Below are positions 26,342 through 61,090 of a stretch of 64,000 nt of DNA, piece after piece. The position numbers and the translations under genes were made by a program. Below the pieces are notes generated by a model. The model did not search any database. It had not been told where the DNA came from and worked only from the letters and a program-made list of their open reading frames with translations. The stretch covers positions 124,001 through 188,000 of the forward strand of contig NZ_QKVK01000008.1 in the NCBI RefSeq assembly GCF_003234965.1. Direction: 5' to 3'. Every line of letters starts with the position of its first letter. Position 1 is the first letter of the stretch. The stretch comes from Aestuariivirga litoralis. Its GTDB lineage: Bacteria > Pseudomonadota > Alphaproteobacteria > Rhizobiales > Aestuariivirgaceae.

Positions 26342-26342
26342 G

Positions 26343-34915: not shown

Positions 34916-34930
34916 AATTGGGGGAATGAC

Positions 34931-43524: not shown

Positions 43525-45183
43525 CTACTTGTGCCCTAAGCGCGCGATATCTTCAGATGTCCCAGCGAGCTCCAGCAAAACATTTGCCCTGCTAGTAGCA
43601 ACATAAATGAGATCTGGGTCAGTCAGCCCCTCAAGCCCGATCAGGAAGACGCAAGGGCGCGATAGACCCTTGAAGCGTCGCACCGTGTCGAAAACAATGT
43701 GATCCGGCCGAATGTCATCAGAGCGGCATGTTGGTCGTCCAGCTATCTTGTCCGGCATTTCCGACGAGGAGCGCCCGGTTCCAAGGAGCACTGCAATTTG
43801 CCCTGGTGAGACCTGACCAGAGCTAAGGAGTTGGGAAATACGTTCACTCACTCGTGAAAACGCTGCTTCTCCATTGCTGCAGACCAGGCTACCCACAGGC
43901 TCACCCTCTGGTCCAGTAGGGGTGCTCCGACGTCCTTCATACCACTTTGCCATCAAAGCGTGAATTCGTCGTGTATTGCGGAGATTTCTCGTCAATGCGA
44001 TCGACGAGACTGGGAGTGCATCTATGAATCCTCTCTCTGGAGAAAACAGGCGCTGGTTGTCGTCATAGAATACATAGAAGTGACCCGCTTCCGGATCCTT
44101 GATTGTGAGACGCAGGGCATGCAGCCAAGAGTCAAGAAAATCCTGCCCCTCATCGACGATGATTGTTTCGAAGCACAGGCTTGGATCTCTGCTGACAGCC
44201 TCAACAAGTGCCTCAGGAAGTGCGCGATCAAACAATGTCTGATCTACTTCGGACGGCATATTGACACCGGTCTTCTTCGCGAAAGTGCGGCACAGAGAGT
44301 GGAAGCTGGCCGCAACAAGGCCATCGTGACCTTCGCATAGTGTACGTAGATAAGCAGCCAGCGGAGCATTGAAGCAAGTCAGCAGCGTACGCCTACCTTC
44401 AGCAGCTGATCTAACGGCCTTCTCGACAGCAAGCACTGTCTTGCCACTTCCGGCTCCCCCTGAAATCGCCATTTCCTTGTTGTCGGCAAGAGAATCGAGG
44501 ATCCAGGCTTGCTCGGCTGTCAGTCGCTCGATGATTCGCGCATCGTCGGCAAGGCTCATGCCGATATGCGCCTTTAACTCAAAATGGCTAGCCAGAAGTT
44601 CTTCCAACGCCCTCAAACCATCCACGCCGAGGGGGCTTTCACGCGTTTCGCTGCCTTCGGTCATTCGACGGCGAATCCATCGATCAAGAGTGTCCATTTC
44701 ATCCCCGAACGCAATAATGTCGAGTGGCGCGTCAGGTGCCAGCGCTCGCGAGGGACGGACGCTGCCAGGAAGTATCGCGCCGTGTCTTGCTCGTATGAAA
44801 CGACCCTCGAGCGCTCTGCTTGCTCCTAGGCGCTTCAGGAAATGATACTTGCTGCTCCGTGCCTGAGCCAACGGGTTCTTGATCCTGAATCTGAACCCGT
44901 CGCGGTCCTCACTGATCCACTGACCATCGTTCTCTCTGCAACTCACTCTCCCGCCTTTAACCTCGAGAAACAGGAGACCGTACTCAGGGTGTGCGACGAT
45001 GAAATCAGCCTCTCCGTCAAACTGGTTGCCATCTCGATCCGCTTCATACCATGACCGAGAATAGTAGCAGTTGTAGTCCCCTGGGAGTTTGTCTCTTATA
45101 CGCTCGTAGACACGAACTTCAGATGACAATTTCGTATTGCTCAGGATGTGTTCGGGCAATTCCCTAGGATACATTCGCGCCAT
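43525..45183 (-). CDS. NERD nuclease-like domain fused to UvrD-type helicase
   Basis: 552 residues. The N-terminal 150 form a NERD domain (DGEADFIVAHPEYGLLFLEVKGG, the D...ExK pattern of a restriction-like nuclease fold). The rest is a superfamily 1 ATPase: Walker A SGGAGSGKTVLAVEKA near 243, Walker B IIVDEGQDF near 343, and RFKGLSRPCVFLIGLEGL near 505. NERD-helicases are thought to act on DNA in defence or repair. It starts 2 bases after drmB ends, so it belongs to the drmA-drmB operon; it is not a standard DISARM subunit. Confidence 0.88.
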   Translation of the reverse strand: MARMYPRELPEHILSNTKLSSEVRVYERIRDKLPGDYNCYYSRSWYEADRDGNQFDGEADFIVAHPEYGLLFLEVKGGRVSCRENDGQWISEDRDGFRFRIKNPLAQARSSKYHFLKRLGASRALEGRFIRARHGAILPGSVRPSRALAPDAPLDIIAFGDEMDTLDRWIRRRMTEGSETRESPLGVDGLRALEELLASHFELKAHIGMSLADDARIIERLTAEQAWILDSLADNKEMAISGGAGSGKTVLAVEKAVRSAAEGRRTLLTCFNAPLAAYLRTLCEGHDGLVAASFHSLCRTFAKKTGVNMPSEVDQTLFDRALPEALVEAVSRDPSLCFETIIVDEGQDFLDSWLHALRLTIKDPEAGHFYVFYDDNQRLFSPERGFIDALPVSSIALTRNLRNTRRIHALMAKWYEGRRSTPTGPEGEPVGSLVCSNGEAAFSRVSERISQLLSSGQVSPGQIAVLLGTGRSSSEMPDKIAGRPTCRSDDIRPDHIVFDTVRRFKGLSRPCVFLIGLEGLTDPDLIYVATSRANVLLELAGTSEDIARLGHK

Positions 45184-45185
45184 GT

Positions 45186-47006
45186 TCAGTGCTGTCCGTC
45201 AAGGAGTTTGCGGAAGAAGCCGAGTGCGGGATTATCGGGCGTGCCGACCAGCAAGCCTCGATCAAGGTGACGGTTGAAGTGCTCGCATGATGTTTCCGGG
45301 AGGAACGTGCAGCAGTGACAGGCTGCTGACCCAGATCCTTCGGAAAGCGAGAGAATTCCACTGCTGCATAGTGGATCGGATGAACACCACTCCAGATTCC
45401 GGAGTGCGGCGAGTAGGATAGGGCCAATCTCGCTGGTTCGGCCCTTTCGCGACAGTCCCCCCAGAGTTCCGTCGGAGTCCGGCGCTGCAGTGTAAAGAAG
45501 AAAGCCGCACATTCCGTCAGACCCAGGTGAACAGTACAACCTCTCACGTATGGAGGCAGTGGAATAGCCGCTGTCGAGTGACAGGCGCTCCGACAGCGCA
45601 TGGGCTGTGGTATGTACAAGGAGTAGTCTTGCTGAAATGGTTATTGGCAATGGGCGATCGTTACCATTGTGGTCTTGCCACGCACGTTCGGCAGCTCGAT
45701 GTGCCGCAGCAGCCCGTTCGGCAACCTCGGGACGACTCTCCCAAGAGAATACGGCGGCTTCGTCGAAGTTGATGAAGATACCTTCTCCCCTGACTTCGAT
45801 TGCCGGTAACCAGTTAAGCTTCTTTTGGGACAAGGGTGCGACGAATGCGCTGTTGTCGGCTGCTTCCGCTGGGCTAAGCCGAGTGAATGCCTTCAGTGCT
45901 CGCACTTCGCGCAGTCTTTCAACTGAGACGACACGGCCCAGGATCCCTGCCAACTCGCTTGGAATATGCTGAGGCGATATCTGAAACTCTGGGAACTCCT
46001 CTCCCTCTGCGCCACCGGAACAGAGCATTAGGTGTTCGTTGGGACGCAAGTCGCCGGTCTTGTCATCCAGAACAGACAGGAGGGTGAGTATTCTCGCAGT
46101 CAACTCTTGATGTTTCATGTCCGGTTCTGGCCATCTAGGATGGATTCGCTTCCGCACAAAATCAGGAAGCTGTGACCGATCGTCCAAAGCAACGATATCC
46201 GGCCAGAAATCCTCTAGCATAGCCCGGAAGGAGCCGCCAAATGGTGGGACATCGAGTGCTGATGAAATAACGGGAAAATAGGCGTTCGAAGCTCCGCGCT
46301 GAATGGCAACTGGTGGGTTGTTGCATGCCACCGGTTGAGCCTTGAGCCAGGGTGATTTACCATCGCAAGGCAGTTTATTAAGGGCGCCCGGTGACAGTGC
46401 ACCGTCAAGATCGCGTTCTGCCTTGCACTCCGTGCAATGGACCTTTAGCCCCTTCAGTCCTGCTCCATCTCCAATAAGCCTCAGGGGTTTTTTCCGGGAG
46501 CAGGATTCGGAATGTTTCGGCCACGACACCCACGGAAAGTCCTGAAGATGTCCAGCTGCGCACGTTACAATGAAGCGGACAGGTACCGCATAGACTTTTC
46601 GTATGCGCTGACCTCGCCCAGAGCTACAAGAGGGGCACCACAGTTCAGGTTTTCCGATCTCGGAACTCCAAGACCTGCTGCGTTGGAGCAGATTACATTT
46701 TGGACATACGTGCCAATCAGGAAAACGATATGCCGGCAGCAAGCGGGGACGCTTGTCTCGGCCTACTTTCTCGTCTCCGACCGGAGGAAGCCTGAATCCA
46801 TTTACTTGAAGTCTTGCTTGGAGTGGTTCGTGGTGAATGCGCTGATCATTGAGGAGGCCCGGTTTGATGGCCAATTGATCCCAAGCCTCAAGGCCAGCCG
46901 CAACTACTGAGACCGGAGCACCATTTTCTCCTCTGAAATCGATAATGGCACCTGGACCATTACCCGTCAGGGCTTGGCTGCGTCGAATCCTGCCAATCGG
47001 TTTCAC
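45186..47006 (-). CDS. drmB: DISARM protein DrmB (DUF1998)
   Basis: 606 residues. The start IGRIRRSQALTGNGPGAIID, the Cys pairs CPKC near 102 and CPSC near 125, VTCAAGHLQDFPWVSW near 153, HTTAHALSERL near 465, and the DUF1998 tail (MCGFLLYTAAPDSDGTLGGL, then CHCCTFLPETSCEHFNR) match DrmB. In DISARM, DrmA and DrmB form the core complex that loads on foreign DNA with a free 5' end (established for the family). It overlaps drmA by 4 bases. Neither the PLD protein DrmC nor a methylase adjoins it here. Confidence 0.9.
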   Translation of the reverse strand: MKPIGRIRRSQALTGNGPGAIIDFRGENGAPVSVVAAGLEAWDQLAIKPGLLNDQRIHHEPLQARLQVNGFRLPPVGDEKVGRDKRPRLLPAYRFPDWHVCPKCNLLQRSRSWSSEIGKPELWCPSCSSGRGQRIRKVYAVPVRFIVTCAAGHLQDFPWVSWPKHSESCSRKKPLRLIGDGAGLKGLKVHCTECKAERDLDGALSPGALNKLPCDGKSPWLKAQPVACNNPPVAIQRGASNAYFPVISSALDVPPFGGSFRAMLEDFWPDIVALDDRSQLPDFVRKRIHPRWPEPDMKHQELTARILTLLSVLDDKTGDLRPNEHLMLCSGGAEGEEFPEFQISPQHIPSELAGILGRVVSVERLREVRALKAFTRLSPAEAADNSAFVAPLSQKKLNWLPAIEVRGEGIFINFDEAAVFSWESRPEVAERAAAAHRAAERAWQDHNGNDRPLPITISARLLLVHTTAHALSERLSLDSGYSTASIRERLYCSPGSDGMCGFLLYTAAPDSDGTLGGLSRKGRTSEIGPILLAALRNLEWCSSDPLCSSGILSLSEGSGSAACHCCTFLPETSCEHFNRHLDRGLLVGTPDNPALGFFRKLLDGQH

Positions 47007-50000
47007 TGCGCTGCTCCCCTGTCCGATCCACCTTCCAACAGAACGTAGGACACTGACGCTTCAACGGAACGTAGTGAGTTGGGTGTCGGTGTCTGCCCGC
47101 TAAAGCGAGCCCTGTTTCCTCGCTCGGCGGCTGATTCCGCTGAAGCCAGGAGAGCGTCATCGTAATCATTCCAGTAGTTAGTTAAACCCTGTCGATCGAA
47201 CCATGCGTCAAGAAATGCATTGAGTTGAGCGCGCGCAGCCGTCGCTTCTGCGGAATCAATCCGCTCGATCCGGGCAATGATTACTTCCAAAAGTGCTTCA
47301 ACTTCCTGTTGATGCTGCGCTATCGCGCCAGGATCCTGCATGCCTCTCACCAGATGGCGGACCATGGCAACATATGGCGCGTGCAGCGCGCGATCACGCG
47401 CGCGGGGTGCGAAAGGAGTTACGCTTGTGGCCTCTACATCCCGATAGAGACTGCGATGCCAACTGGCAAATGTCTCATACCGGCTGCGGTCGCGGGACTT
47501 GGCCGCGTTGAACAGCGTGACAACAAGACCGGGAGCCTTCTGGCTCCTCCCGACCCGACTTGTGGCCTGAATGTACTCGGCAATCGTCTTTGGTTGACCG
47601 TTGACAACCATCAAACCCAGTCGAGAAACATCCATTCCAACGGATATCATGTTACTAGCCAGAACGATGTCGACGTGGTTCGGCTCGTTCCAGGTTCGCT
47701 CAAGGTCTTTCAGGTACCTTGGAATATCACTGGATCGCACACGGCTTGTCAGTTCGATCTGCATGCCGGCATCGCGCTCGGATTCACCGGGCCTGCGCGC
47801 TGCATATTCACGCACGCTGCGGGCAACGTCGTCGCGCATCAGAACGAGTGCGCCACCTAGCTCCCTCAGTGAATTGAAGTAATTGACGAGAGTCCAGTAT
47901 CCATCGCGCTTATCCGGAGCCAACGTCTGATCGGTAGCCGCCTGCAGCAGAGAAGCCGCGACTGCTTGTTGAGTGAACTTGGCCGAGCGGCCGACAGTAG
48001 AGATACCTATGTAGCGACGTCCAGCCACACTACGGTCCTCGATGGCGAAACCTGAATTGGTGTGATCTAGTCCAGGCGGGGGGAATTGAAAGGAGCGTCG
48101 ATCGAACAGAGCCTTGATCTGATCGTCCGCCCTTCGGATTGTTGCCGTTGATCCAATGACCTTCGCTCGGGCGCCGGATGCCGATCGGCAAAGTTCATCA
48201 ATTGCCGTTTCATATAGACCAGCAAGGCTTCCTAGCGGGCCTGAGATCAAGTGGAGTTCGTCCTGGATCACCAGTTCAGGCGGCTCTGTAGGCGTCCCGA
48301 TTCCGAACAGATAGCCAGTCTTCTGATTTCGAGTGATTTGAGCGTACTTGTCGACCGTTCCGATCACAAGAGTTGGCTGTTCGCGATAGACATCCTCATC
48401 GACCGTCCAGATCGGAAGGAGCTTAAGCACTTGCCCAACATAGCAAGAACTAGTCAGGCAGCGCACTTCTACACGGCTCTTGTCTACCGAGATCCTCCAG
48501 TCGAGTGCCTCGTGACAGCAAGGGCAGCTCTGCAACTGAGCAGGAGAGCTCTCTGCATCTGTACCCAGTACCTTTTCTGCCTGCTCGACAGTGTTGGGTG
48601 TGGCTCCCTCGCCAACCCAGAGCCCAAGGGAGATGGGGACATCTGATGCAAAGTGCGAGGGCAGAGGTGCCTCTATCAGAGTTGACTTGCCGAGCCTCAC
48701 CATCTCACAGGCGCAGATGAGGGCCGCTGCACGCTCGAACTGCTGTATTGTGAGCAGTCGAAGTGTATATCGCATAAACGTCGTCACGCCCGCGCCCCCG
48801 GGATTTCCCTTGGCGCGGATACGACGGAGGAAGATCGTGAAGGCCGTCAGCAGCAGATAGGCTTCCGTTTTTCCACCGCCCGTTGGAAACCACAGTAGAT
48901 CCATCGTCTCACGATCAGGGGAATCGGATGTGGCGATCGACTCAAGGCAAAGGAGCGCAAAGCCGAGTTGAAAAGGCCGCCACGACAGTTCGGGAGGCTG
49001 AGGATTGACACGCCATGAATACTGAAGCGCAAGTGCAGCGTTCGCTAGCCGGAATGCAGTCATCACATCAGATGATGATCTGAGCAGTTCGATGCCCGCT
49101 CGCATCCGCTGTTCAGCGGCTTGACAGCGATGTAGGTGTTGCTGGGCTTGCTCTGAGAATTCATGAGGTATCCCGATTGCTTCGCCTGCCATCCTCGAAA
49201 TCCAGCGAGAGTAGGCGTCGACAAATGATCCCAGTCCATTCAAAAGAGTGGCACCGCTCTCTGATGCAAGCCAGGATGCTCCGAGTGGCATCCTCGCACT
49301 TGTGCTCCGGAACTCGATGTCGCCCTCTGCGCTAACAACATGTACGGTGGCCTCGGGGAACCAGCTTGTCGTGATCCGATGAACAATGCCGTCAATGGGC
49401 TCGTCCCACATGGCTGAACAAGTGTGGCCAACCCCGAATTGCTGAACGTGGCGATAGAGTAGGGCTGATGTGCGTACATCGTCATCTCCCGACGCCGGTC
49501 CGGCTTTGTCTGGCTTGGGAACAAAACTGCATTCACTCTCACACTCAACATCCATCGAGAATTGAAAAATTGCAGCCTCTTCGTTCGCGGAACGGCTTCT
49601 TGCCTCAGTCACTCGTGCGTCGTTGGTCGCAGCCAGCGTGATCAGCAGAATTTCACCCCAAGAAACAATTCTGCAGTGCAGCGACACCCCTGCAAAACCG
49701 ATGCCTGCGAGGCTGATTACCGGAGCCGCTTGCTTCCGCAATTCCGCCACCTCTAGGGCGACTTCGGCGGAGTGCGGCTCACGCCTCCATTTCTGTGCGC
49801 GTCTTCTGGGGGAATCGATTGCTTCTTCAGCGCCGACTTCTGGTCTGTAGCGAGCTCCCTTAACTCTAACGCGCAACCTCGGTGCCGAACCACTCGGCTG
49901 GATCGCGAAGGAGAGGCCAGCAGAGCTTGGCCGAAAGGCCGAGATCGCCTTCACCCCATCGAGGGCAGTACCTACAGAATCGGAATCGTCAGCATCGCTC

Positions 50001-50161
50001 GCCTCATCATCATCCTCAGGCTGAGTGGTCGTACGTGGAGGGAAGAGTATCCCTGTCATATATCGATCGGTGGGCCGATCCGAAATCAATTCATCTGGTG
50101 CCTCAGGACCAATGAGATCGACCTTCATTCTATCCAGTAAAGTGTCGCGCGCGTCAGTCAT
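47003..50161 (-). CDS. drmA: DISARM helicase DrmA
   Basis: 1052 residues. The N-terminus has the DrmA pattern (MKVDLIGPEAPDELI, then PTDRYMTGILFPP) followed by an acidic linker. Walker A is WFPTGGGKTEAYLLL near 427, the DELH box (IQDELHLISGPLG) near 637, and motif VI is QATSRVGRSQKAPGLVV near 867, then RYETFASWHRSLYRDVEATS as in known DrmA. It unwinds or translocates DNA together with DrmB. It overlaps drmB and lies 29 bases after the UvrD-like gene. Confidence 0.92.
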   Translation of the reverse strand: MTDARDTLLDRMKVDLIGPEAPDELISDRPTDRYMTGILFPPRTTTQPEDDDEASDADDSDSVGTALDGVKAISAFRPSSAGLSFAIQPSGSAPRLRVRVKGARYRPEVGAEEAIDSPRRRAQKWRREPHSAEVALEVAELRKQAAPVISLAGIGFAGVSLHCRIVSWGEILLITLAATNDARVTEARSRSANEEAAIFQFSMDVECESECSFVPKPDKAGPASGDDDVRTSALLYRHVQQFGVGHTCSAMWDEPIDGIVHRITTSWFPEATVHVVSAEGDIEFRSTSARMPLGASWLASESGATLLNGLGSFVDAYSRWISRMAGEAIGIPHEFSEQAQQHLHRCQAAEQRMRAGIELLRSSSDVMTAFRLANAALALQYSWRVNPQPPELSWRPFQLGFALLCLESIATSDSPDRETMDLLWFPTGGGKTEAYLLLTAFTIFLRRIRAKGNPGGAGVTTFMRYTLRLLTIQQFERAAALICACEMVRLGKSTLIEAPLPSHFASDVPISLGLWVGEGATPNTVEQAEKVLGTDAESSPAQLQSCPCCHEALDWRISVDKSRVEVRCLTSSCYVGQVLKLLPIWTVDEDVYREQPTLVIGTVDKYAQITRNQKTGYLFGIGTPTEPPELVIQDELHLISGPLGSLAGLYETAIDELCRSASGARAKVIGSTATIRRADDQIKALFDRRSFQFPPPGLDHTNSGFAIEDRSVAGRRYIGISTVGRSAKFTQQAVAASLLQAATDQTLAPDKRDGYWTLVNYFNSLRELGGALVLMRDDVARSVREYAARRPGESERDAGMQIELTSRVRSSDIPRYLKDLERTWNEPNHVDIVLASNMISVGMDVSRLGLMVVNGQPKTIAEYIQATSRVGRSQKAPGLVVTLFNAAKSRDRSRYETFASWHRSLYRDVEATSVTPFAPRARDRALHAPYVAMVRHLVRGMQDPGAIAQHQQEVEALLEVIIARIERIDSAEATAARAQLNAFLDAWFDRQGLTNYWNDYDDALLASAESAAERGNRARFSGQTPTPNSLRSVEASVSYVLLEGGSDRGAAQ

Positions 50162-50190
50162 TCCAACTCTCCAGGCAACGTGATCCCTGC

Positions 50191-52617
50191 TTAGCGGGGG
50201 ATGGTGGCAAAGCCACCCAAAAGAGGCATGATCGCAATGCTTGGTGCTTCCCCGGGACGCGCTGGTACGACAACCGTAGTTGCGCCAACGATGGATATCG
50301 CACCAATTACATCCGGAAGTGGGGCCCCGGGTTCGACTTGCCGCAATGACTGCACTATCTCGATAAACTGTTCAGATAGAACTCCAATCGCAGTCCCCTC
50401 ACGATCTCCCATTCTCACGATAAGTCTGCCGTTGGAGTCAGGGTATGCAGCTACTTGGGGGCCATCTAGCGATGCTTGCCATATCGCTGAGATAGTCTCC
50501 GCCTCACTGGTCATATGTCCGGAACGCATAAATTCGGTCCAGTCTGCAAGGTCCCCCTCCAGACCGACTTCGATGAGGCGGCTATCACGACGAGCGGCCC
50601 AGTAGCGCTCAGGAGTCCCAATGGTGTAGAATTGTCTTGGGTTGATCCACCCTGTTCGGAGTTCCGAGCTCGCCCGCGTTGCCCCAACATAAAGGGTGCG
50701 TGCCTCCTCCGCCCAGTCCACCGTGTCGCCGTGGGGGGCTCGAGTGAGCAATAGCATCACCTTTTCGGCCTCCCTCCCCTTGATGGCGTGGATCGTAGAG
50801 AGTAGCGGCCCCGACCTTCCTTCATAGTCAGTTACAAGGTCTAGTGGAGGATCGGCAAGAGCTTCGGCAACGTGGCCGACTGATATGTCACCGCGTCCGG
50901 ACGCATCTAGATCAAGCAGTATGTTCCAGCAGTCTGCGGCATCGCGCTGCGGTGCAGGTCTAATCTCAGAATAAAGGAACTGAAAGCCATCTTGCGATAC
51001 TCTGGACGTAGCCGGTAAACCACCAAGCAAGGAACCAATCCACGGTTCGATCCTCTGAGGGCGATCAGATAGTCTGACGCGGTAGCTCCGACCCGCCGCA
51101 CGCAACTCCTCAGCTGCTGTGTAGAGACCGCGACGACTTCTAGTTAAAATGAGACCACTTGCCGTAGATGCATGGCTCGCAAAGCTTGTCACGTCCCTCT
51201 CTATGGTCGCTGTTCCAATCTGCTCTCTAACAAGAAGATAATTGTCCCTCGAGCCAACAACATCGGCTTTCAGCGTCTTGCGAATTGAGCCGAACATGCT
51301 CTTCAAGGCCGCAGTTCGAGTGCGATAATCGTGTTCAAGTTGATCACTGGTAAAATCGGAACGCTTCGCAACAGTTGTTAGAAATGTGGCACCCGTCTTG
51401 TCTCTGTATTGGTATCCATAAATCGATTGGGCAAAATCTCCGAAGACAGTTATGCCGCATGTTGGGGCCAATAAGTCTAGGAGCGCCCCACACATGTGCT
51501 CGCGATCCCCCACCAGATCCTGGGCTTCATCAATGATCACATGTTCGAGTTGGCCCATCGCGTCTACCACGACTGGGTTATTCGAGCGCAATAGCTTCGT
51601 AGCAGCCTGAATGGTTGCGTCATGGCCGCCGGAATTGCCAAGGCCAACTGCTGCAAGTAGGCGTGCAGCAAATGAGTCGAAAGTTCTGACCTGCAAGGAT
51701 GCCACGTTCGGAGTGTTATCGAGGCGTCTTTGAATTCTGTTTCGAAGTTCAGCAACCGCAATACGCGTAAAGCTTAGAATCAGGATACGCGCTGGAGCAA
51801 GATCGTCGTTCTGTACCAAGGAAATGACACGTTCGCAGGCCACATGAGTCTTCCCGCTACCAGGCCCGGCCTCAATAACCAATCTGGAGTCCGAAGTTGC
51901 TTGCACCACACGCAGTTGGCTTTTGTCCAAAATCTGTGCGTCATATGAGGGGGAGTCCACTGGTGCGCAGTCGAACCACTCATTGAGGAACTCTGTGTTG
52001 GCCTCACTCATCGACCACCTTTGCTCCGCAGGATCGAACGATCCACAGAGGAGGATAGCTCTACGCAGAGAGCGAGGCATCGGAGTATCGCTCGTCCAGC
52101 TTCCTGCCGGTTCGAGCCTACCTCGGCTCCCTAACATCCTTGGCTCGTCTGACGCTGCAAGGACTTCGACGAGGGTCTCTGTTGCTTGACCTGTGGTCTC
52201 TGGAAAAAATCTGTCGGATCCAGCCGAAGGCGGGACCCCGTGATCCCCGAGCGCGACGACCTTTCCGTCCGGAAGAGCGACGCGACGCTCTGGCAGAGCC
52301 ACCAGAACACGGTCGCCCCGCACCGTTCCGAAGCCTATGTCCTGCATCTCGCACAGAAGATCGATCACTCCTTCCACCTGTGACATTGCCTGATGCCTGT
52401 CGGCGTCACCAATAAACTGCGAAACCCAGTCAGCGACCGCAGCTCGGCCGACTCCACGACGTGCATGTACAATGTGCCGGACCAAATCCGCGATAACTCT
52501 CAAAGTCGAGGGCCCATACAGATTGGGAACGTGGGGTCCGGTGGAAATCATATTCTCTGAAATCAAAAAATACCTCTCGAGAAATCGTCCAAATATGATT
52601 GACCTTTGGTAAGACAT
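50191..52617 (-). CDS. UvrD/PcrA-type helicase
   Basis: 808 residues. After an unassigned N-terminal region of about 230 residues come the superfamily 1 motifs: Walker A VIEAGPGSGKTHVACERV near 249, LILSFTRIAVAELRNRI, Walker B HVIIDEAQDLVGD near 359, TVFGDFAQSIYGYQY, LEHDYRTR, and LLSTIHAIKGREAEKVML near 610. The long N-terminus differs from housekeeping UvrD and may bind a partner. It is first gene of the drmA operon and diverges from the 52694 gene across only 76 bases. Confidence 0.9.
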   Translation of the reverse strand: MSYQRSIIFGRFLERYFLISENMISTGPHVPNLYGPSTLRVIADLVRHIVHARRGVGRAAVADWVSQFIGDADRHQAMSQVEGVIDLLCEMQDIGFGTVRGDRVLVALPERRVALPDGKVVALGDHGVPPSAGSDRFFPETTGQATETLVEVLAASDEPRMLGSRGRLEPAGSWTSDTPMPRSLRRAILLCGSFDPAEQRWSMSEANTEFLNEWFDCAPVDSPSYDAQILDKSQLRVVQATSDSRLVIEAGPGSGKTHVACERVISLVQNDDLAPARILILSFTRIAVAELRNRIQRRLDNTPNVASLQVRTFDSFAARLLAAVGLGNSGGHDATIQAATKLLRSNNPVVVDAMGQLEHVIIDEAQDLVGDREHMCGALLDLLAPTCGITVFGDFAQSIYGYQYRDKTGATFLTTVAKRSDFTSDQLEHDYRTRTAALKSMFGSIRKTLKADVVGSRDNYLLVREQIGTATIERDVTSFASHASTASGLILTRSRRGLYTAAEELRAAGRSYRVRLSDRPQRIEPWIGSLLGGLPATSRVSQDGFQFLYSEIRPAPQRDAADCWNILLDLDASGRGDISVGHVAEALADPPLDLVTDYEGRSGPLLSTIHAIKGREAEKVMLLLTRAPHGDTVDWAEEARTLYVGATRASSELRTGWINPRQFYTIGTPERYWAARRDSRLIEVGLEGDLADWTEFMRSGHMTSEAETISAIWQASLDGPQVAAYPDSNGRLIVRMGDREGTAIGVLSEQFIEIVQSLRQVEPGAPLPDVIGAISIVGATTVVVPARPGEAPSIAIMPLLGGFATIPR

Positions 52618-52693
52618 TAGTCAACCTCGCCATGGGAGGATTTGGTCTCTTGTCGGCATATGGCGGTGGCAGTCCCGCGGGTATGGAGGACTG
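52618..52693. promoter_or_regulatory. Compact divergent promoter region
   Basis: Seventy-six bases separate the UvrD-like start (52617, minus) from the 989-residue gene (52694, plus), whose ribosome site is GGAGGACTG. No clear -10/-35 pair is visible. The spacing suggests both arms of the cluster are controlled together. Confidence 0.4.
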
Positions 52694-55663
52694 ATGCAGG
52701 GTATAGATCTGCTGTCAGATCGACATGAGCAACTTGCGGAAAGATTTGCAAGCTTGGCTCGTGCTCGTGGGGAGAGGCCCGTCTTCGCCATCGAGCATGG
52801 GCTCGACGATTTGGCGCTTGTCGAATTGAGAACTTCTGTCTCGCGACTGCTTGAGGAAGATCCACAACTCACTCGGGCATCGTGGTCGTTGAAATTTCTT
52901 CCTATGGTCGTTATCGCGAGCGAGGTGGGCTACCGATACCGCGGCACTGGAACCGATTTCTGGCCTTTGCTCTCGCAAGAACTCGGTGTCGAAGCAGGTA
53001 CTGCATTCCGAATCGGTCTTTCGGAGCTGTTCGAACTCGGACATCGCAGGCTACGGCTGTTCCGACCCGGGGACAGCCCCTGGGAACGTCACTTTCCGCA
53101 TATATCGTGGCCGATTGGCAACGCCGTGGTACCCCTTGAGATACAACCTCAGCTCACGGACGCACTCCGACGTGCCGTCAGGGCGGGGATATCAGCTGAG
53201 GACACGGAAGGGCTGCTTGATTACATCCGTGCACTTGCGGCGGGGCACGCAAGTCGTCGCTTCGAGAATTGGTTGCTCCAAAGAGATGTTGCCCTAGAGG
53301 TCATGCGTCGCCTCCTTGCTCCTGAGTCTGAGGGTTGGCTTGCAGACAGCATACTCATTCGAATAGATCGCGATATTCGAAGGGATTGGGGTGCGTTTCG
53401 TGCGATTACGGAAGCGCGGCGGACGATTGCAAGGCGATCGGCGCGCCTCTCGCAGATTGTGTCATCTCGGTATGTTCTCGCGCTGGACAATGGCGTGCCA
53501 CGGCAATTGGCCATTCGTGGGCCAGTATTGTCGGCGCAGTTGCGCGACGAGGTGGTTGCTGCGTTGCGTATACATGGAGACCGCATACGAGCAGTTGATG
53601 GAATGCACGCAATTTCTCTCAGTTCATTCCTTGCTGGTGGTGAAATTGCGCTAAGGAACATCTGCCCGTTCCCGGTGACACCCTTGCGCCGGGACCACGC
53701 CGTCGATCTGGATGAGGGGGCTGCAAGTTCATTGATGAGATCATTGCAGCCTCTTGAGCCCGAGTTCTTCCTTGTTGAACCTGATGGACTTACGGCTCAG
53801 GCGATTTTTCCCAGTGAAAAGATTCGGCCTGACGTGAGAATCATTCGGTGTCTTGGTCTGAGTGATGAAGGGAGCCTCGAGACCCGTATTTTGAGCACGT
53901 CGGCTCCTTCTGATGCCGAACTCCTCCGACGCCGCGGGTTTGCGATTGCAAACCAGGTCCCCACGCTGCAACTCCTCGGACTGCCCGCTCCCGGATTCTC
54001 AAACAGGTTCCTCAGCACCTTCCCAGTGCTCGTAACTCGGCGTGTTCCCACCAGTTCTGAACTCCTTATCGATGGCTCCCGTGCATCGGGTGAGATTCTG
54101 AACATATGTGGTGTTCAGTGGAAAGCCCTGCGACCCGAAGTTGGTCGGCATCTGATCGAACTTTCCGAGGGCCGAGAGCTTGACAGACTGGAGTTCGAAG
54201 TCATTGAGCCCCCAGATGTTGAACCTGCTGCGATCAAGGTCATTCCAGAAAACGCAAATGTTTCCGACCTGGAGAGCGGTGAACTCGAGATAAGGGTTAC
54301 TGCGCCACTGGCACTTGAGTCAGTTCCAATCCGTATTCGCGTAGTCTCCCCAAGCGGGCCTACGTTTGTTTCCGAAGGTGTGATCGAGCGATTGCCCGCC
54401 AGGATAACTGGCCGTTCTCCCGTCCTGTACGCAATACAGTCAAAGCTGCCTGGTCTGCAGGCAAGCGAATCCGGTCTCCGTTTGTCTGTGGATGTAGGTG
54501 GACTCTTTGAGAAGGTATTTTCCCTTCCACCGGTTCGCAGGGAGCTTCGCTATGACTGGGAAAGACGTATCTGGACAAGGATTGGCCAGGACACATTGGT
54601 GCTGCCTTCGGTCAGCGCGACCATTGAGGAACCGCTCCTCAATAAGGAGGAGCGTGACTGGTTGGTAACCCGACTGATTGTTCCAGACGCCGGAGATCAC
54701 GAGTCGTTGGCGGCGGGCCTTATTCTGCCAGGACAGGAGTCCAGTCGATTTGAACTTGGTGATCGTTGTACAGTAACACTCCCTGAATTACTTCGAGAGC
54801 CGACGTCAAGTGGAAACGGCGTGGGACTCATCGAACTCGCCCGTGCCAATGTTGCGTGGCAGCTCGCTGAGGCGCATGAACTGCTGAGTAACTGGCGGCG
54901 CTGGAATCTCGTCGAAGAGCTTGAAGCCGCTTTGGTCGAGCAGCTTTGTGGGAAGGGTTGGCGCGGGTTGGAAGCTGGAATAGACCTGTCTATTCTTTCA
55001 CCGCATGAGGCTCTCCTTCGATGTGCAGACGGTCTAGACCTCATTTCCGGCAAGGACTTGCCAGATGTTGAGCGGACTTCCGATAAGGAATTCTTGCGAG
55101 ATCGGCTGATCGCACGTTTGTCCGCAGCTGTACCAGATGTGTCGGAAGCGCTTCTGAAGTTCAGTGACGATCTTGCAGGAAAACTCGATCTCGCCGTGAT
55201 CGAAGCATACGAGGATTTGCGGCACCAGCAGGAAGCAGACGGCATCAAAACATTCGAAGAAGTGGACATGTCCCGTCCAGCAGAGTTGTGGCGCAAAGCA
55301 TTGGAAGACTCTCGTGAAGTCCCCCTTCTGCCGATGTTCCGACCGTTCATTTTACCAGAAGCGCGTTGGTTGGCGTTGATAACGCCCATCTACAGTGAGC
55401 TCACCGAAGACGATCTGATTGACTTGCTCGACTCCACCCACGTCGATGCATCCCGGCGATCCGGGTTCCGCTGGCTCGGCCGCGCGGAACTCCGAACTAT
55501 GTTGCAACTCTGGCTCTCCCCCAAGACGATGGTCGAAACAGAAGGATGGCGGGACCTTCTGGCGAGGGGGCTTTCGGATGTACGGACAAGCAGAGCAGTT
55601 CGATATGTTGCGCTTCGGCGGAAACTCGCGCTGAGAGACCTCCCGGACGCGGGCGCCTTTTGA
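52694..55663 (+). CDS. Unknown 989-residue protein coupled to an SNF2 helicase
   Basis: I do not recognise a family. The N-terminal 250 residues are helical (SRLLEEDPQLTRASWSLKFL, FWPLLSQELGVEAGTAFRI). Residues about 520-640 look like a beta-sandwich (LEIRVTAPLALESVPIRIRV), and the C-terminal third is helical and acidic. No nuclease, ATPase or methylase motif is seen. ATG 52694 has GGAGG at good spacing. Its stop overlaps the next start as TGATG, so it is translationally coupled to the SNF2 gene and is probably a structural or recognition subunit of the same complex. Confidence 0.8.
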   Translation: MQGIDLLSDRHEQLAERFASLARARGERPVFAIEHGLDDLALVELRTSVSRLLEEDPQLTRASWSLKFLPMVVIASEVGYRYRGTGTDFWPLLSQELGVEAGTAFRIGLSELFELGHRRLRLFRPGDSPWERHFPHISWPIGNAVVPLEIQPQLTDALRRAVRAGISAEDTEGLLDYIRALAAGHASRRFENWLLQRDVALEVMRRLLAPESEGWLADSILIRIDRDIRRDWGAFRAITEARRTIARRSARLSQIVSSRYVLALDNGVPRQLAIRGPVLSAQLRDEVVAALRIHGDRIRAVDGMHAISLSSFLAGGEIALRNICPFPVTPLRRDHAVDLDEGAASSLMRSLQPLEPEFFLVEPDGLTAQAIFPSEKIRPDVRIIRCLGLSDEGSLETRILSTSAPSDAELLRRRGFAIANQVPTLQLLGLPAPGFSNRFLSTFPVLVTRRVPTSSELLIDGSRASGEILNICGVQWKALRPEVGRHLIELSEGRELDRLEFEVIEPPDVEPAAIKVIPENANVSDLESGELEIRVTAPLALESVPIRIRVVSPSGPTFVSEGVIERLPARITGRSPVLYAIQSKLPGLQASESGLRLSVDVGGLFEKVFSLPPVRRELRYDWERRIWTRIGQDTLVLPSVSATIEEPLLNKEERDWLVTRLIVPDAGDHESLAAGLILPGQESSRFELGDRCTVTLPELLREPTSSGNGVGLIELARANVAWQLAEAHELLSNWRRWNLVEELEAALVEQLCGKGWRGLEAGIDLSILSPHEALLRCADGLDLISGKDLPDVERTSDKEFLRDRLIARLSAAVPDVSEALLKFSDDLAGKLDLAVIEAYEDLRHQQEADGIKTFEEVDMSRPAELWRKALEDSREVPLLPMFRPFILPEARWLALITPIYSELTEDDLIDLLDSTHVDASRRSGFRWLGRAELRTMLQLWLSPKTMVETEGWRDLLARGLSDVRTSRAVRYVALRRKLALRDLPDAGAF

Positions 55664-58635
55664 TGGACTCATACCTTCGGTTCATTAATGGCGTTCAGGC
55701 ACTGCGGCGGAAGATCTCCGCCCTGGAAATCAGCTTGGGTGGCGCGCTTGGGGTCGCCGCCGATCCATTGCCGCATCAGATCGCAACGGTGCGCCGGATT
55801 CTTTCCGACACACATGTCCGTCATTTGATTTCAGACGAAGTTGGGCTTGGAAAGACCGTACAGGCTTTGATGATTGTCAATGCGTTGCGTTACCAAGATC
55901 CCAAGCACAGAACACTTGTGATTACGCCAGACAATCTGTTGTCGCAGTGGCAGGAAGAGTGCTGGATCAGAGGTCATGTGATGCCAGCCATCGCAGGTGC
56001 CGTGGGAGAAGGCACTCAAGACGATCTGCCATCTGTAACGCTGGCGCGTCCGCGCGATCTGATGGCTCGTCCTGGTCAAGGAGCGCGAACCATCAATGCA
56101 GATTCCAGCGTCTTCGATCTCCTAATTGTTGACGAGCCCCAAACAATGCCGCGTGAGGTGATCCAGGCCATATCCCAGGCGTCGGATGACTTTCGGCAGG
56201 TTCTTGTTCTGTCTGCCACACCGCGACTGGGCGACCCCGTGTGGCGGGAGCCGATCTTGCGGATGATTGAACCAGAAGCTGCTTCGCTTGCGCGGTTGGA
56301 AGGCCGTAGTGTGGTCGACGTTCTTCAGAGCCGCGAGCAGGCTGCAATGACTGCCCTGAGCCGATCGGACGATCCCGATAGCTTGACGAGGGGATTTCTT
56401 CAGTCCGGAGCCTCCCGGCGTATCATCAGGAATGGTCGGTCAGACTGGGCCGCATATCTTCCGCAGCGCCGAAATCACGAAGTTCGATTGAAGCCTCTCG
56501 CTTGCGAGAAGATGCGACATGACCTCGCTGCCATGGTGCTGGAGAGCACAGACCCCCGTCAAGGTCTTCAGGGCCCGGCTTGGACGGCGGCCCGCGCGCT
56601 GCAGCGCAGTGCGCGTGCAGCGAGGAATGTTCTGACCGAACTGTCCGCGCGCGGAGGGGCTATTGGTCAACTCGCAGAGGCCGCTCGCCTCAAGTCGCTT
56701 GAGGATCCTGGTGACAGTCGATTGGAGGCTTTGCTGGACATACTGTCGGAGCAGTGGTCGGAGAACGAGAAGCGCACCTTCATCATAGTCTGTGGAGACA
56801 ATCCGACGATCGACATGCTGCGTTCAGCGCTTCCACCCTACTTTCCGTTCTTAGCTGATGCGATTTCTGTATTGCGACGCCCTGCCGCCGCGGAAGTGGA
56901 AGGCGTAACATCTCTTCAGGAAAGCCAAGAAACGCTTGCGCCACTTCTATCGGGTGAGAGTCGTCTTCTGCTCGTTGGCGACTGGGTACAGGCTGGGCTC
57001 AACCTCCACCACGTCGCACAGGGAATAATCTTCTTTTCACTGCCTTGGGAAATTGACGGTATCGATCAGCTGATAGGACGCGTCGACCGAATCGGTGCAG
57101 CTAGCGACCGCAAGGGATCAAGAAGTGTCATAGATATCTGGAGAATCCTGATCGATGGATCGCAGGAAGCCGCAATTGCAGATACCGTTGCTGCTTTCGG
57201 CATATTTGACGCCCCGCTTCCACCTCTTTCATCAGTTGAGCTGACGGAACTTCAGACGACGCTCGGGCACTCTGCCATCCGGCGTAAGGCAATTCCTTCG
57301 GTCGCCAAACTCACTGGTAATGGTGGTGGTTTGCCGTCCTGCTTCAAGCAGGCCGATCCCTTTACCAGACAGAAGGCAATTGCGGACTTTGAGCTTTGGC
57401 GTGAGAAGCCCTGTCCAGCACCAGTCGTGATGTATGAAAGTGCTCGCCCCAAAGATACACCAATACGCCGTGAAGAGCGTGCAATCGGAGCGTGGTTGAA
57501 AGTCATTACCGCTTCAACCGACTTTGATATTGGTTTCCGACGCGACAGATCCGATGACTATGGGTTCCACACGCTGTGGTATCATGGAATCGGTGGTCGG
57601 GGGCCTGCTGGTGAGAGTCCGTTCGTCCTGCCTGGTGTGCGTCGAGAGAACTGGATGACAAATCACATCCCGTTCATCTATCGCCGATCAGATATATCTG
57701 CTCCGCCGCGAAAGAGTGTATTTACAGATGACGGAGAGCTTGGGGCGGACAGCGAGAGAATGGCGCGCCCGCTACGCTTTCTGGATCATGGCGAATTGAT
57801 GCACGATGTTCTGGTTGCTGGCTACGAAGCTGCGACCCTCAGTGCGTTCGGCGCAGTAAGTCCGGTCGTGCAAACCAGCGTTAGACTGCCTCAAGGCCAT
57901 CCTGCAGGAACGATTGGCGCGATCGTAATCATTTCGGTCGCTCACGCTGACCCATTTCCGGACAATCTCATCCCGCCGCTATGGACGCAAGAGGCGAGTG
58001 CGATTCTAAAGGCCGCGCCAACCGACGTGCAGAAGAGAGCTCTCACCGCTGACCGACGCATGCTACGAAGCCTCTTTCGTGCGCTACAGCGCAGGATACG
58101 GAATGTCGCGCCAACAAGACTTGTTCGAGTTGGGTCAAGCAAAGCAAGAGGAGAGTGGCTGCCACTGACTGAAGAGACGCTGGATCTCTGCCTGCAGCCA
58201 ATGACCTCCTCAACCAACAATGCAGTGGCGAAGGGGAGACCACCACTAATAGCTCTTGAAAGGCGCGATGTTGCAAATGGAGTCCGGTCTCGGCAATTAT
58301 CCGCGATCACTGCGCAGGTGGGGAATCTAAGGTCTTCCGCTCTGAATCTCGTTCAAAATGAGCTTGTCGGCTTCGCCTATCAGGTCAGTGCCCACTTTCA
58401 GGCCGAGATCGCAAATCGGGAGCTGGCCTTGGAGCGTCGTAGGCAGTTGCCACCAGAAGCCGGTCCAGTCGAGCTAAGGCAGGGTCAAGTGGCAGCTTTG
58501 GAGAGATATCTGGAGATGTCTCGGCTGAATTTTTCGGAAGCGACCAACTTCATCAAGAGCCTCTCTGAGGGGAGTGTCCTGTATGGCAACATTCAAGCGC
58601 GCACAATTCTCATGTCACTTGTCGTACAGGATTGA
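55663..58635 (+). CDS. SNF2-family helicase-like protein (DpdE-like organisation)
   Basis: 990 residues from ATG 55663. Walker A is SDEVGLGKTVQALMI near 63, Walker B is DEPQ (LLIVDEPQTMP) near 165 instead of DEAH, LVLSATPRLGDP follows, and motif VI is IDQLIGRVDRIGA near 470. The C-terminal half (after 620) is long and unassigned. The layout recalls the SNF2-like DpdE proteins of 7-deazapurine DNA-modification clusters, but no DpdA-type transglycosylase is in the window, so the name is not applied. It is coupled to the upstream unknown and diverges from the drmA operon. Confidence 0.85.
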   Translation: MDSYLRFINGVQALRRKISALEISLGGALGVAADPLPHQIATVRRILSDTHVRHLISDEVGLGKTVQALMIVNALRYQDPKHRTLVITPDNLLSQWQEECWIRGHVMPAIAGAVGEGTQDDLPSVTLARPRDLMARPGQGARTINADSSVFDLLIVDEPQTMPREVIQAISQASDDFRQVLVLSATPRLGDPVWREPILRMIEPEAASLARLEGRSVVDVLQSREQAAMTALSRSDDPDSLTRGFLQSGASRRIIRNGRSDWAAYLPQRRNHEVRLKPLACEKMRHDLAAMVLESTDPRQGLQGPAWTAARALQRSARAARNVLTELSARGGAIGQLAEAARLKSLEDPGDSRLEALLDILSEQWSENEKRTFIIVCGDNPTIDMLRSALPPYFPFLADAISVLRRPAAAEVEGVTSLQESQETLAPLLSGESRLLLVGDWVQAGLNLHHVAQGIIFFSLPWEIDGIDQLIGRVDRIGAASDRKGSRSVIDIWRILIDGSQEAAIADTVAAFGIFDAPLPPLSSVELTELQTTLGHSAIRRKAIPSVAKLTGNGGGLPSCFKQADPFTRQKAIADFELWREKPCPAPVVMYESARPKDTPIRREERAIGAWLKVITASTDFDIGFRRDRSDDYGFHTLWYHGIGGRGPAGESPFVLPGVRRENWMTNHIPFIYRRSDISAPPRKSVFTDDGELGADSERMARPLRFLDHGELMHDVLVAGYEAATLSAFGAVSPVVQTSVRLPQGHPAGTIGAIVIISVAHADPFPDNLIPPLWTQEASAILKAAPTDVQKRALTADRRMLRSLFRALQRRIRNVAPTRLVRVGSSKARGEWLPLTEETLDLCLQPMTSSTNNAVAKGRPPLIALERRDVANGVRSRQLSAITAQVGNLRSSALNLVQNELVGFAYQVSAHFQAEIANRELALERRRQLPPEAGPVELRQGQVAALERYLEMSRLNFSEATNFIKSLSEGSVLYGNIQARTILMSLVVQD

Positions 58636-58865: not shown

Positions 58866-60521
58866 TCAGACTTTCGCCCGCACGTCCTGTACATGCTTGC
58901 AGTTCCCACGGTAGAGGAATCCCTCGCACGTACATTCCAGGTGCCCGGCGCGACCGTAGGTGACCCGGTATGACTTCGAAAGGTCCCGGGAGGACTTGAA
59001 CTCCCACAGGCCAGGATTGTCGGCCTCTTCCTGCTGCCGCTGGGCCTTTGGGAGTAGGGCAGTGAGCTCTGTCAACCGGTCCTTTGGGTCGCTCTTGGCC
59101 AGTTTCGCCTCCTGCATGAGGGCAGGGGCAATGGCGCGGAGCCTGGATTCGAGTTCGGCCAGGAAGGAGGCATCAGGGGCAACCTCCGCCTCCACCGACC
59201 CTATCAAGGCCATCTTGAGGGAGAGCAGCTCCGAGATGTACTCGTCGAGCGAGCCCTCGGCGAAGAAGTACTCCACCGTCACCCGGTTCTTCTGGCCGAG
59301 GCGGTAGCAGCGATCCTCTGCTTGAGCGTGGTTCGCCGGTACCCAGTCAAGGTCTTGGAAGATCACATGTGTTCCGGCCGTTAGGGTAATGCCGACGCCG
59401 CCTGCAATTAGGTTACAGACGGCGACCCGGACCTCCTGATCGTCCTGGAAGCGCTCCACGGCGGCCTGCCGCTGCTCGGCCGTGTCCGACCCGGAAATGG
59501 TCACGCAAGCCTCGCCCAGTGTTTTTGCGTGGCGCTTCAGCCCCTCGGTGAAAGAGGTGAACACGACGACCTTCTGACCAGTCTCCAGAACGTCCTGAAT
59601 GCGCTCCTCCACCGCCTTGTGCTTGGCCTTGTGGAGGGCGGTCCTGACCTTCATGAGCTTGGCGAGAAACTGCTTGTCGTTCGGGTTAGCTGGGTCTGTG
59701 GAGGCATACCAGCGGATGAAGGCCAGCGAGCTCTCGATCGCAAAGGCGCTGGAGGCAACATCGACCGGCACCCAGCTCCTTACCTTCGGCGGCAGGTCGA
59801 GAACTTCCTCCTTCTTCCGGCGTATCGAGACCTCCTTGAGAAGGAGGTTCAGCTCCTCCAAGTTCGAGGCGCCAGTCGTCACCCAGCCGAAGTCGTTCTG
59901 GTAAGCGTCGCAATAGCGTTTGGCGAAGGACAAGAAGGAGCGCGCTGCCGGGTGTCCGACGCAGCGGAGCAGGTTGAACAGGTCCCGCGGGCGATTGGTC
60001 ATTGGCGTGCCGGTCAGCAGGAACACGTACTGCGGACCGATCACCGGTGCCCGTGTCTCCTTCTGGACGCCCAGCAGCTTTAAACAGTAGCTGGTCCGCT
60101 GGCTGGCGTTCTTGATGAAATGCGCCTCATCGAGGATCACCCCTGCCCACGGAACGTCGTGCAGCCGGGCGGCGTTTTTCGTCAGTAGATCGTAATTGAC
60201 GATGACCCAGCGCGGCGTGCCTTCGGGAGCTCCGTCCTTCGCGCCAATGATCTCCACCGCGGCACCCGGATCGACCATCCGGATCTCACGCCGCCAGTTG
60301 AGCTTCAGGGATGCGGGGCAAACGACAAGGATTGCTCCCTCTGGCGCGCCGACATTCATCGCGACAATGGCTTGCCGGGTCTTTCCCAGGCCCATGTCGT
60401 CCGCGAGCACCACACGCTTCTTCGACAGGAGGAAAGCCACGCCATCTGATTGATGCGGGTAAAGGAGACCCCGGGGAATTCTTGAGAGTTCAGCCAGGTG
60501 GGGAACAACGAAGTCGTTCAT
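58866..60521 (-). CDS. SNF2-family helicase with C-terminal SWIM zinc finger (copy 2)
   Basis: 551 residues from ATG 60521, nearly the same as the protein of 10905-12560: same Walker A (LADDMGLGKTRQAI), DEAH box, motif VI (DRCYRLGQKNRV) and SWIM finger (CTCEGFLYRGNCKH). Differences are scattered, conservative substitutions. The start overlaps the small gene's stop as ATGA, showing translational coupling that the first copy lacks. The transcript begins at the 61124 promoter and includes the second leader RNA. Confidence 0.9.
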   Translation of the reverse strand: MNDFVVPHLAELSRIPRGLLYPHQSDGVAFLLSKKRVVLADDMGLGKTRQAIVAMNVGAPEGAILVVCPASLKLNWRREIRMVDPGAAVEIIGAKDGAPEGTPRWVIVNYDLLTKNAARLHDVPWAGVILDEAHFIKNASQRTSYCLKLLGVQKETRAPVIGPQYVFLLTGTPMTNRPRDLFNLLRCVGHPAARSFLSFAKRYCDAYQNDFGWVTTGASNLEELNLLLKEVSIRRKKEEVLDLPPKVRSWVPVDVASSAFAIESSLAFIRWYASTDPANPNDKQFLAKLMKVRTALHKAKHKAVEERIQDVLETGQKVVVFTSFTEGLKRHAKTLGEACVTISGSDTAEQRQAAVERFQDDQEVRVAVCNLIAGGVGITLTAGTHVIFQDLDWVPANHAQAEDRCYRLGQKNRVTVEYFFAEGSLDEYISELLSLKMALIGSVEAEVAPDASFLAELESRLRAIAPALMQEAKLAKSDPKDRLTELTALLPKAQRQQEEADNPGLWEFKSSRDLSKSYRVTYGRAGHLECTCEGFLYRGNCKHVQDVRAKV

Positions 60522-60829
60522 TCCTTTTCCCTCTTCTCCTCGACCGGAGACCATTCGATTGTGATCTTCATGGCCTCCATTGCAATTTCGTCTCGCAATG
60601 CCTCTATAATTGCACTGCGCTCGCGCCAGGCCCTGCGGGCTTCATCGCCGACCTTGGGCGTTGGCGGTTCGTACTCACAATCTTCCGGTAAGGTGGCCTT
60701 GATTGCCTTGAGAAGTGAGTCACAAGCAGCCATCACTTCTAGCCGTCGTTCCACCAATTCTGCCTTGGATCTTCCGGCAGTGTGTGGCGTGGGTGTGAGC
60801 AGTGGGGATAGCTTCAGGCTTGGATACAT
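60518..60829 (-). CDS. Small unknown protein paired with the SNF2-SWIM helicase (copy 2)
   Basis: 103 residues, homologous to the product of 12576-12869: shared LSPLLTP, AGRSK, LPEDCEYEPP, EALRDEIAMEAMKITIEW. It ends with a charged tail EKREKE not present in copy 1. The ATG follows GGAGCG. Conservation of both the gene and its position supports a functional tie with the helicase. Confidence 0.75.
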   Translation of the reverse strand: MYPSLKLSPLLTPTPHTAGRSKAELVERRLEVMAACDSLLKAIKATLPEDCEYEPPTPKVGDEARRAWRERSAIIEALRDEIAMEAMKITIEWSPVEEKREKE

Positions 60830-60983
60830 TTAAAATCGCTCCGTCCATGGCTCCGCGTGAGGTGGGCAGGCGAGTTCCAAGTGAATAGCCAGAGGCAAAA
60901 CCTCGTGGGAAGTGGCTCTGCTGAGCTGATTTCGTCACTGGAATATTCCGAAGGCGCCAATCCCAATTCCCCGTCAAAAAGGA

Positions 60984-61077
60984 GGGTCGACGCACCCCGC
61001 ATAATTGCTCTCTCGAGCCACATCTCCTCTCGGATACCACCTTGCCCGGGTAGGCAGGTTGGTTTGGGCGTCGACCC
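60984..61077 (-). ncRNA. Structured leader RNA, copy 2
   Basis: Same 94-nt length and fold as 15147-15240: 10-bp closing helix, ACCTGCC/GGCAAGGT hairpin, TCC-GAGA-GGA and GCTC-GAGA-GAGC stems. Compared with copy 1 both GNRA loops change GAAA to GAGA, and one U-G pair is C-G. About 155 bases separate it from the first start codon, and TCCTTTTT follows the closing helix, so premature termination is one way it could act. Confidence 0.6.
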
Positions 61078-61090
61078 AATCTAGATGCTG

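Follow-up and report, generated by a model that had tools for sequence, protein, structure and literature searches.

DISARM systems share a drmA-drmB core, to which class 1 adds drmD and drmMI and class 2 adds drmE and drmMII. In a stretch of 64,000 nucleotides of the Aestuariivirga litoralis genome (contig NZ_QKVK01000008.1, positions 124,001 to 188,000; hereafter the window), this core occurs beside a UvrD-type helicase, a NERD nuclease-helicase, an SNF2 ATPase and a 989-residue protein, raising the question of whether the six genes constitute a single defence system and from which known systems its parts derive. The analysis presented here suggests that they probably form one predicted anti-phage system, in which a UvrD-DrmA-DrmB-NERD group and a divergent 989-SNF2 pair join the DISARM DrmA-DrmB core to parts of Druantia type I. 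The block looks like an undescribed DISARM-Druantia hybrid defence with an added nuclease, and many related bacteria carry its genes in this order. No description of the gene set was met among the listed titles and abstract openings of the DISARM and Druantia literature.

Organization and distribution of the six genes

None of the six reading frames is interrupted at the coordinates given in Table 1. The first-pass annotation of this DNA had called DrmA and DrmB clear, and both assignments hold, that of DrmA by PADLOC, though its NCBIfam score falls slightly below the cut-off. The UvrD-type helicase and the NERD-helicase are likewise recognized by Pfam at the places where they had been reported. 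Across the spacer, a protein with no family match is coupled, as had also been reported, to an SNF2 ATPase with a DEPQ Walker B (LLIVDEPQ).

Table 1. Genes and spacer of the unit, and the methylase found in the same window
Feature	Position	Strand	Evidence and predicted role
NERD nuclease + SF1 helicase, 552 aa	43525..45183	(-)	Pfam NERD 5.5e-9, UvrD-helicase 3e-7; PADLOC RTasNERD-Hel 193 bits; candidate effector nuclease
DrmB, DUF1998/MZB protein, 606 aa, GTG start	45186..47006	(-)	NCBIfam NF038324 469 bits (cut-off 240); Pfam MZB
DrmA, YprA-type SF2 helicase, 1052 aa	47003..50161	(-)	PADLOC DrmA 682 bits; NF038325 915.9 bits, slightly below cut-off 950
UvrD-type SF1 helicase, 808 aa	50191..52617	(-)	Pfam UvrD-helicase 2.3e-27; DruD-like domain in first ~228 residues
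76-base spacer separating the divergent groups	52618..52693		Coordinates
989-aa protein	52694..55663	(+)	Homologue of protein X (~955 aa) from DruA-X-DruD-DruE operons; candidate sensor or regulator
SNF2/RapA-like ATPase, DEPQ Walker B, 990 aa	55663..58635	(+)	Pfam SNF2-rel_dom 2.9e-9
DrmMII-like cytosine-5 methylase, 510 aa	18966..20498	(+)	PADLOC best model DrmMII 282.7 bits; 23 kb from unit; uncertain member

The SNF2 frame was first listed from 55546, and the ATG at 55663, which sits in a TGATG overlap with the stop of the 989-residue frame, is its most likely start. Only this join (1 base) and that of DrmA with DrmB (4 bases) overlap, the NERD-helicase and DrmB genes being separated by 2 bases and DrmA and UvrD by 29; the compact divergent layout described earlier stands, but the stop-start overlaps attributed to it do not extend to these two joins. 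To judge from the layout, each divergent group may form a single transcript.

Related loci were recovered by a pattern scan of genome contigs for the 989-residue family, which depends on conserved peptides and is not exhaustive, and the gene content of the 30 loci obtained was assigned by blastp of their frames. A YprA-family helicase lies beside the 989-residue gene in 28 of them, DrmA in 24 and a DruE type in four. The co-occurrence with drmA that had been proposed as a check is thus present, and the contrary pattern, 989 and SNF2 genes occurring mostly without drmAB, was not seen. Half of the loci (15/30) show the layout of the window, 14 with all six genes (the NERD frame being split in L013) and one (L018) truncated by the end of its contig. 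Because the same layout recurs in other genera it is beyond chance, and the earlier proposal that the six genes are one unit is supported.

Nine loci, termed form B, carry DrmB-DrmA-UvrD and 989-SNF2 but lack an adjacent NERD gene; one of them, L035, has its 989 gene in two short frames. Four others, form C, combine 989-SNF2 and NERD with a one-piece helicase and a small DruD-like gene, without drmAB. The remaining two, L016 and L020, contain 989-SNF2 and show no YprA helicase; L016 is a metagenome contig ending within the 989 gene, and L020, which also keeps UvrD, has in the 2.4 kb from there to the contig end (1-2422), where DrmA would be, a transposase-like frame named by reading and nothing similar to the six genes. 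Neither assembly gave a DrmA match in a search that was positive for two control genomes.

The 989-residue family is rare, occurring in three of 289 alphaproteobacteria and three of 398 Pseudomonadota, the A. litoralis genome being counted in both cases. Among 72,556 plasmid records it was found in six, five of them typed as conjugative or mobilizable, and five of the six were examined for layout. Rhizobium pTA1_2 carries the six genes as in the window, a second Rhizobium plasmid has all six with broken frames, an Azospirillum plasmid has the window layout with SNF2 truncated by the end of the record, and the Leisingera and Paracoccus plasmids are of form C. A scan of viral contigs yielded one window-type and one form B locus.

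One chimeric locus (L023, 380-15936) unites a 989/SNF2 half near that of the window (58-64% identity) with a distant UvrD-DrmA-DrmB half (41-46% for DrmA/DrmB), the latter with two UvrD-like frames (29-35%). With one half close and the other distant, the halves can evidently be exchanged, which suggests that they may recombine at the divergent spacer.

The 989-residue protein and its Druantia relatives

The 989-residue protein had no match at 0.01 in Pfam, PADLOC or NCBIfam and none in PADLOC at 0.1, and 28 aligned homologues gave three isolated weak matches to Pfam and PADLOC. A hidden Markov model of 29 proteins of the family matched an unnamed protein of about 955 residues, here protein X, in four DruA-X-DruD-DruE operons (E 9.6e-38 to 3.7e-47), and alignment of the family with X by hhalign gave E 1.1e-33 over 732 columns. 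In these operons (L009, L010, L041 and L049) the homologue precedes DruD and DruE, in a single same-strand run with DruA; L009 and L010 are the two loci that the survey of 289 alphaproteobacteria yielded besides that of A. litoralis. The components of L009 are recognized by Pfam (DruA, 4e-81) and PADLOC (DruD, 455 bits; DruE1, 2046 bits), and L041 (Nitrosococcus pNWAT01, in which DruA is annotated) and L049 (genome G619) share the arrangement of L009 and L010. On these profile comparisons, the 989-residue protein is homologous to X of Druantia type I. The P. putida pKF715A genes identified as DruB and DruC from their position show no relationship to it.

The second tie to Druantia lies in the UvrD-type helicase. 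Comparison of its N-terminal domain (23 sequences) with a DruD-like set (seven sequences) gave E 2.2e-11 over 129 columns in hhalign and a score of 84.7, against a highest score of 18.1 among 200 column shuffles. With the four Druantia-I DruDs alone the match was weaker (E 6.3e-4), so the bridge runs via the form C proteins. In the form C locus L007 the helicase is DruE1 by PADLOC (1528 bits), the small gene resembles DruD weakly (22.4 bits), and further along there is a DruA1 gene; the helicases of the other form C loci resemble that of L007. Since the 989-residue protein is a homologue of X and the UvrD N-domain matches DruD, the DrmAB core appears to be equipped with Druantia-I parts, and the association of the 989 family with a DruE-type helicase, together with the DruD-like domain in UvrD, makes the system half Druantia. 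The first-pass annotation had correctly seen a DISARM relative in the locus, and missed this second parent.

A relationship of the 989-residue protein to DruH, the proposed sensor of Druantia type III, is only suggested by the comparisons made. Its AlphaFold2 model, built with 29 sequences, has a mean pLDDT of 83 and a pTM of 0.44, and the latter value makes its domains more trustworthy than their arrangement: a helical N-domain to about residue 253, beta-rich domains to about 680 and a helical C-domain. In DruH, according to PMC13192584, helical ends flank Ig-like domains at 257-748, and E75, R78/R79 and W88 of the N-domain are required for defence. E77 and W90 are invariant across the 989 family and spaced as in DruH, and the protein of the window has R81 between them (E-x3-R-x8-W). 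Profiles of the two N-domains, seven full and two partial proteins representing DruH, matched with P 0.0098, one of 200 shuffles scoring higher; comparisons over the whole length and the C-domain yielded nothing. Foldseek with the 989 model gave no match at E<=0.001 in PDB or BFVD, and the 50 matches listed are mostly tandem Ig-like or beta-sandwich proteins. DruH itself, PDB entry 9tud, is absent from these 50; a profile search of PDB sequences returned nothing usable, and a search of E. coli DNA with part of DruE1 found no match.

The two halves could also be separate systems that travel together, a DISARM variant (UvrD-DrmA-DrmB-NERD) and a 989-SNF2 pair meeting at the divergent spacer. Such a reading agrees with the divergent layout, with the different closeness of the L023 halves to the window, with the pairing of 989-SNF2 with another helicase in form C, with its presence in L016 and L020, whose assemblies gave no DrmA, and with a UvrD-DrmA-DrmB-NERD-helicase locus (L094) whose genome had no 989-family match. 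It is nevertheless unlikely: a YprA helicase accompanies the 989 gene at all but two of the loci, both cut or disrupted, X shares one same-strand run with DruA-DruD-DruE in Druantia I, and the UvrD N-domain and X/989, lying one in each half, are both Druantia-I parts and so tie the halves together.

The DISARM core, the accessory motors and the genomic island

The usual DISARM partners had been reported not to adjoin the DrmA-DrmB core, which is the case within the unit of the window: among its six genes there was no match to DrmC and, by Pfam, PADLOC and NCBIfam, no DNA methylase. Frames with the HxKx4D pattern were sought in 33 + 14 + 6 stretches, and none of DrmC size lies beside DrmB. As a control, the pattern retrieved in L089 a DrmC-sized frame that is DrmC by PADLOC and that a stricter PLD pattern missed. 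Farther off, HxKx4D frames, identified from the motif alone, occur in L004 and L005 (273 aa, annotated as an integrase in L004), L025 (433 aa) and the flanks of L021 (332 aa) and L019 (556 aa).

DrmA matches above 200 bits were found in nine of 385 alphaproteobacteria including A. litoralis, and the other eight genomes provided nine neighbourhoods. DrmA adjoins a large methylase-like gene in three of them (DrmMI by PADLOC in two, recognized from an NPPY motif only in L090), and one of these methylase-type DISARM loci, L089, has DrmC. NERD-helicase-like genes with other partners occur in four (L092, L093, L095 and L096), the match in L093 being weak and the better one in L095 not adjacent; of the remaining two, one is L094 and one a fragment. 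Seven of the eight genomes, including that of L094 and the three with methylase-type DISARM, were searched with the 989 profile and none gave a match, in a search without a positive control of its own. In a tree of 35 DrmA sequences, a branch (100/99) sets the 989-linked proteins and L094, 28 rows together, off from the others, and the three methylase-type DISARM loci stand apart (99/97); the tree is midpoint-rooted and its long branches make the deeper joins uncertain.

Two side observations concern these neighbourhoods. L094 contains frames inserted between DrmA and DrmB (8095-10853), perhaps a mobile element. L092 (3156-13504), L093 (6169-16412) and L096 (3509-13750) represent another DrmAB variant, composed of a large protein, a NERD-helicase-like gene, DrmA and DrmB; the large proteins have 1109, 1107 and 906 residues, the first two are related (3e-16) and none of the three matches PADLOC. 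Comparison ruled out a relationship of these proteins to the 989-residue protein.

The catalytic motifs of the motors are largely conserved. DrmA ATPase motifs are present in 27 of 27 homologues, and in the UvrD homologues Walker B is found in 28 of 28 and Walker A in 21 of 28. All 15 NERD homologues have the D...ExK pattern and 14 the Walker A pattern of the helicase, L022 reading GGAGAGKT. In the SNF2 family, Walker A is present in 28 of 29 proteins and DEPQ in 21 of 29; the ATPase of the window scores 134.8 bits against NCBIfam DpdE (cut-off 500) and 65 bits against DrmD of DISARM class 1 (cut-off 610).

According to the first-pass annotation, the nuclease function of DISARM might have moved to the NERD protein. 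This fits the main form of the unit, in which NERD occupies the place of DrmC. It fails for the nine form B loci, where NERD is missing beside drmAB: whole-genome search of eight form B genomes (that of L029 left out) gave no NERD-helicase match in any. NERD can therefore not be the nuclease on which all members of the group depend. Among ten genomes searched for NERD-helicase, only those of L023 and L036 gave matches.

As to the methylase, the earlier description holds for the unit of the window alone. A drmC plus methylase adjoining in close relatives had been named as evidence against the earlier proposal, and the methylase, not drmC, was found there. The frame of a cytosine-5 methylase ends 23 bp from that of NERD in both L011 and L012 and 58 bp from it in L014, and in L015 the distance is less than 1 kb, all being convergent with NERD; in L013 some 4 kb lie between the two. 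The methylase of the window is 67-68% identical over 509 residues to the NERD-adjacent enzymes of L011 and L012; the remaining methylases in the comparison fall into a second, Dcm-like family. Counting L016 and L020, 13 of 21 window-type loci have a C5 methylase in the visible flank (L004, L005, L011-L015, L019, L020, L022, L024, L028 and L107), and in five of the eight without one (L006, L016, L018, L023 and L031) the end of a record or contig truncates the locus on one or both sides. The window enzyme abuts a MzaB-E set, and it is possible that, from 23 kb away, it acts as the self-marking partner of the unit. Five of six extended form B flanks (L101, L102, L104, L105 and L106) contain C5 methylase, Vsr-like, GHKL ATPase and SNF2 genes convergent with DrmB, and four of the six an HNH-like gene, some of the names resting on motif reading.

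That the locus is an ordinary DISARM, its drmC and methylase lost or displaced and its additional genes mere island neighbours, is a reading with some footing, since DrmB scores above and DrmA only slightly below the curated cut-offs, DrmC is often absent and non-essential in DISARM (PMC9142583) and a DrmMII-like methylase occurs in the window and adjoins the unit in close relatives. We regard it as improbable, given that the extra genes keep their order across many genera, that the DrmAs of the unit group separately and that the three methylase-type DISARM genomes gave no 989 match in the search described above.

Several other elements were noted in the window. A probable ARMADA type II set spans window positions 1-10711 and the left flank from the same genome (L099, 14180-19998), in the order SNF2 (BrxHII-like), Eco57I/PglX-like methylase, YprA-like helicase and a 690-aa gene that matches a helicase weakly, an order as in PMC12458937. 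The MzaB-MzaC-MzaD-MzaE set (PADLOC) occupies 20568-27842, and two genes at 33470-36562 match the A and B components of the PADLOC candidate PDC-M61. An SNF2-SWIM gene is duplicated (10912-12897 and 58873-60857, 82% DNA identity), as is a SAM-I/IV riboswitch (15130-15271 and 60967-61108, 92%); one riboswitch copy accompanies metK, and it is unusual for a SAM riboswitch to precede an SNF2 gene. A role of the unit against plasmids or conjugation or in DNA repair, rather than against phage, is very improbable: it would suit a set made up mostly of motor proteins and carried on mainly conjugative or mobilizable plasmids, but the unit shares its island with Mza and probable ARMADA genes, and its relatives DISARM and Druantia are anti-phage systems (PMC9142583, PMC13192584).

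Proposed function and comparison with known systems

From the parts list and homologies presented here, we infer a course of action for the hybrid system, every step of which is conditional. By analogy with the proposal for DruH, the 989-residue protein would sense infection or gate the system, and the SNF2 ATPase would travel along duplex DNA. DrmAB prefers DNA with 5' overhangs, and it is both subject to autoinhibition and slowed by 5mC (PMC9142583); it may load on single-stranded 5' overhangs, which the DruD-UvrD helicase could widen, and cutting would fall to the NERD nuclease. Cytosine methylation by a DrmMII-like enzyme would lower DrmAB activity on self DNA and so protect it.

In copies of the window type a fused NERD nuclease-helicase adjoins DrmB, so that point mutations can test which nuclease acts with DrmAB. 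Through its tie to Druantia I, an unnamed family of about 955-989 residues gains a context and a testable role as sensor; the tie also suggests that YprA-family defence helicases have swapped partner sets. A broader and more tentative proposal, to which we give somewhat less than even weight, is that the YprA helicase serves as an exchangeable engine. A single partner set (the sensor-like 989/X protein, the DruD domain, SNF2 and NERD) would work with either the split DrmA plus DrmB of DISARM or the one-piece DruE of Druantia, and these loci would represent a third class that physically links the two systems, each locus having a DruH-like sensor.

Compared with named systems, the unit differs from ARMADA, which has a one-piece YprA helicase with PglX and BrxHII, in its split DrmA/DrmB and the absence of PglX among its six genes. 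With TALON (PMC12458937) it shares a YprA helicase associated with a NERD nuclease; the YprA protein is, however, of DISARM rather than ARMADA-like type, and no TPR-CSD or TBP domain occurs among the six genes. Its SNF2 ATPase is closest to DpdE of the Dpd system, but below the cut-off, and no other Dpd part scores above cut-off in the unit. With DISARM it has in common adjacent and overlapping drmA and drmB genes, an SNF2 ATPase and a DrmMII-like C5 methylase recurring nearby, and it is distinguished by UvrD, the NERD-helicase and the 989-residue protein, by an SNF2 score far under the DrmD cut-off, by a DrmA that groups separately, and by showing no DrmC and no methylase within the unit of the window. 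Druantia type I (DruA-DruB-DruC-DruD-DruE) has, in its four-gene form DruA-X-DruD-DruE, the homologue of the 989-residue protein, and its DruD is represented, by profile comparison, only as the N-domain of UvrD; unlike it, the unit has no DruA among its six genes and no DruE (best match 16.1 bits), its YprA helicase is split into DrmA and DrmB, and NERD, the UvrD motor and SNF2 are added. With Druantia type III (DruH-DruE), which the unit exceeds by four genes, it shares a DruH-like layout of the 989 model and, in the protein of the window, the E-x3-R-x8-W motif of the N-domain, sequence homology to DruH being only suggested.
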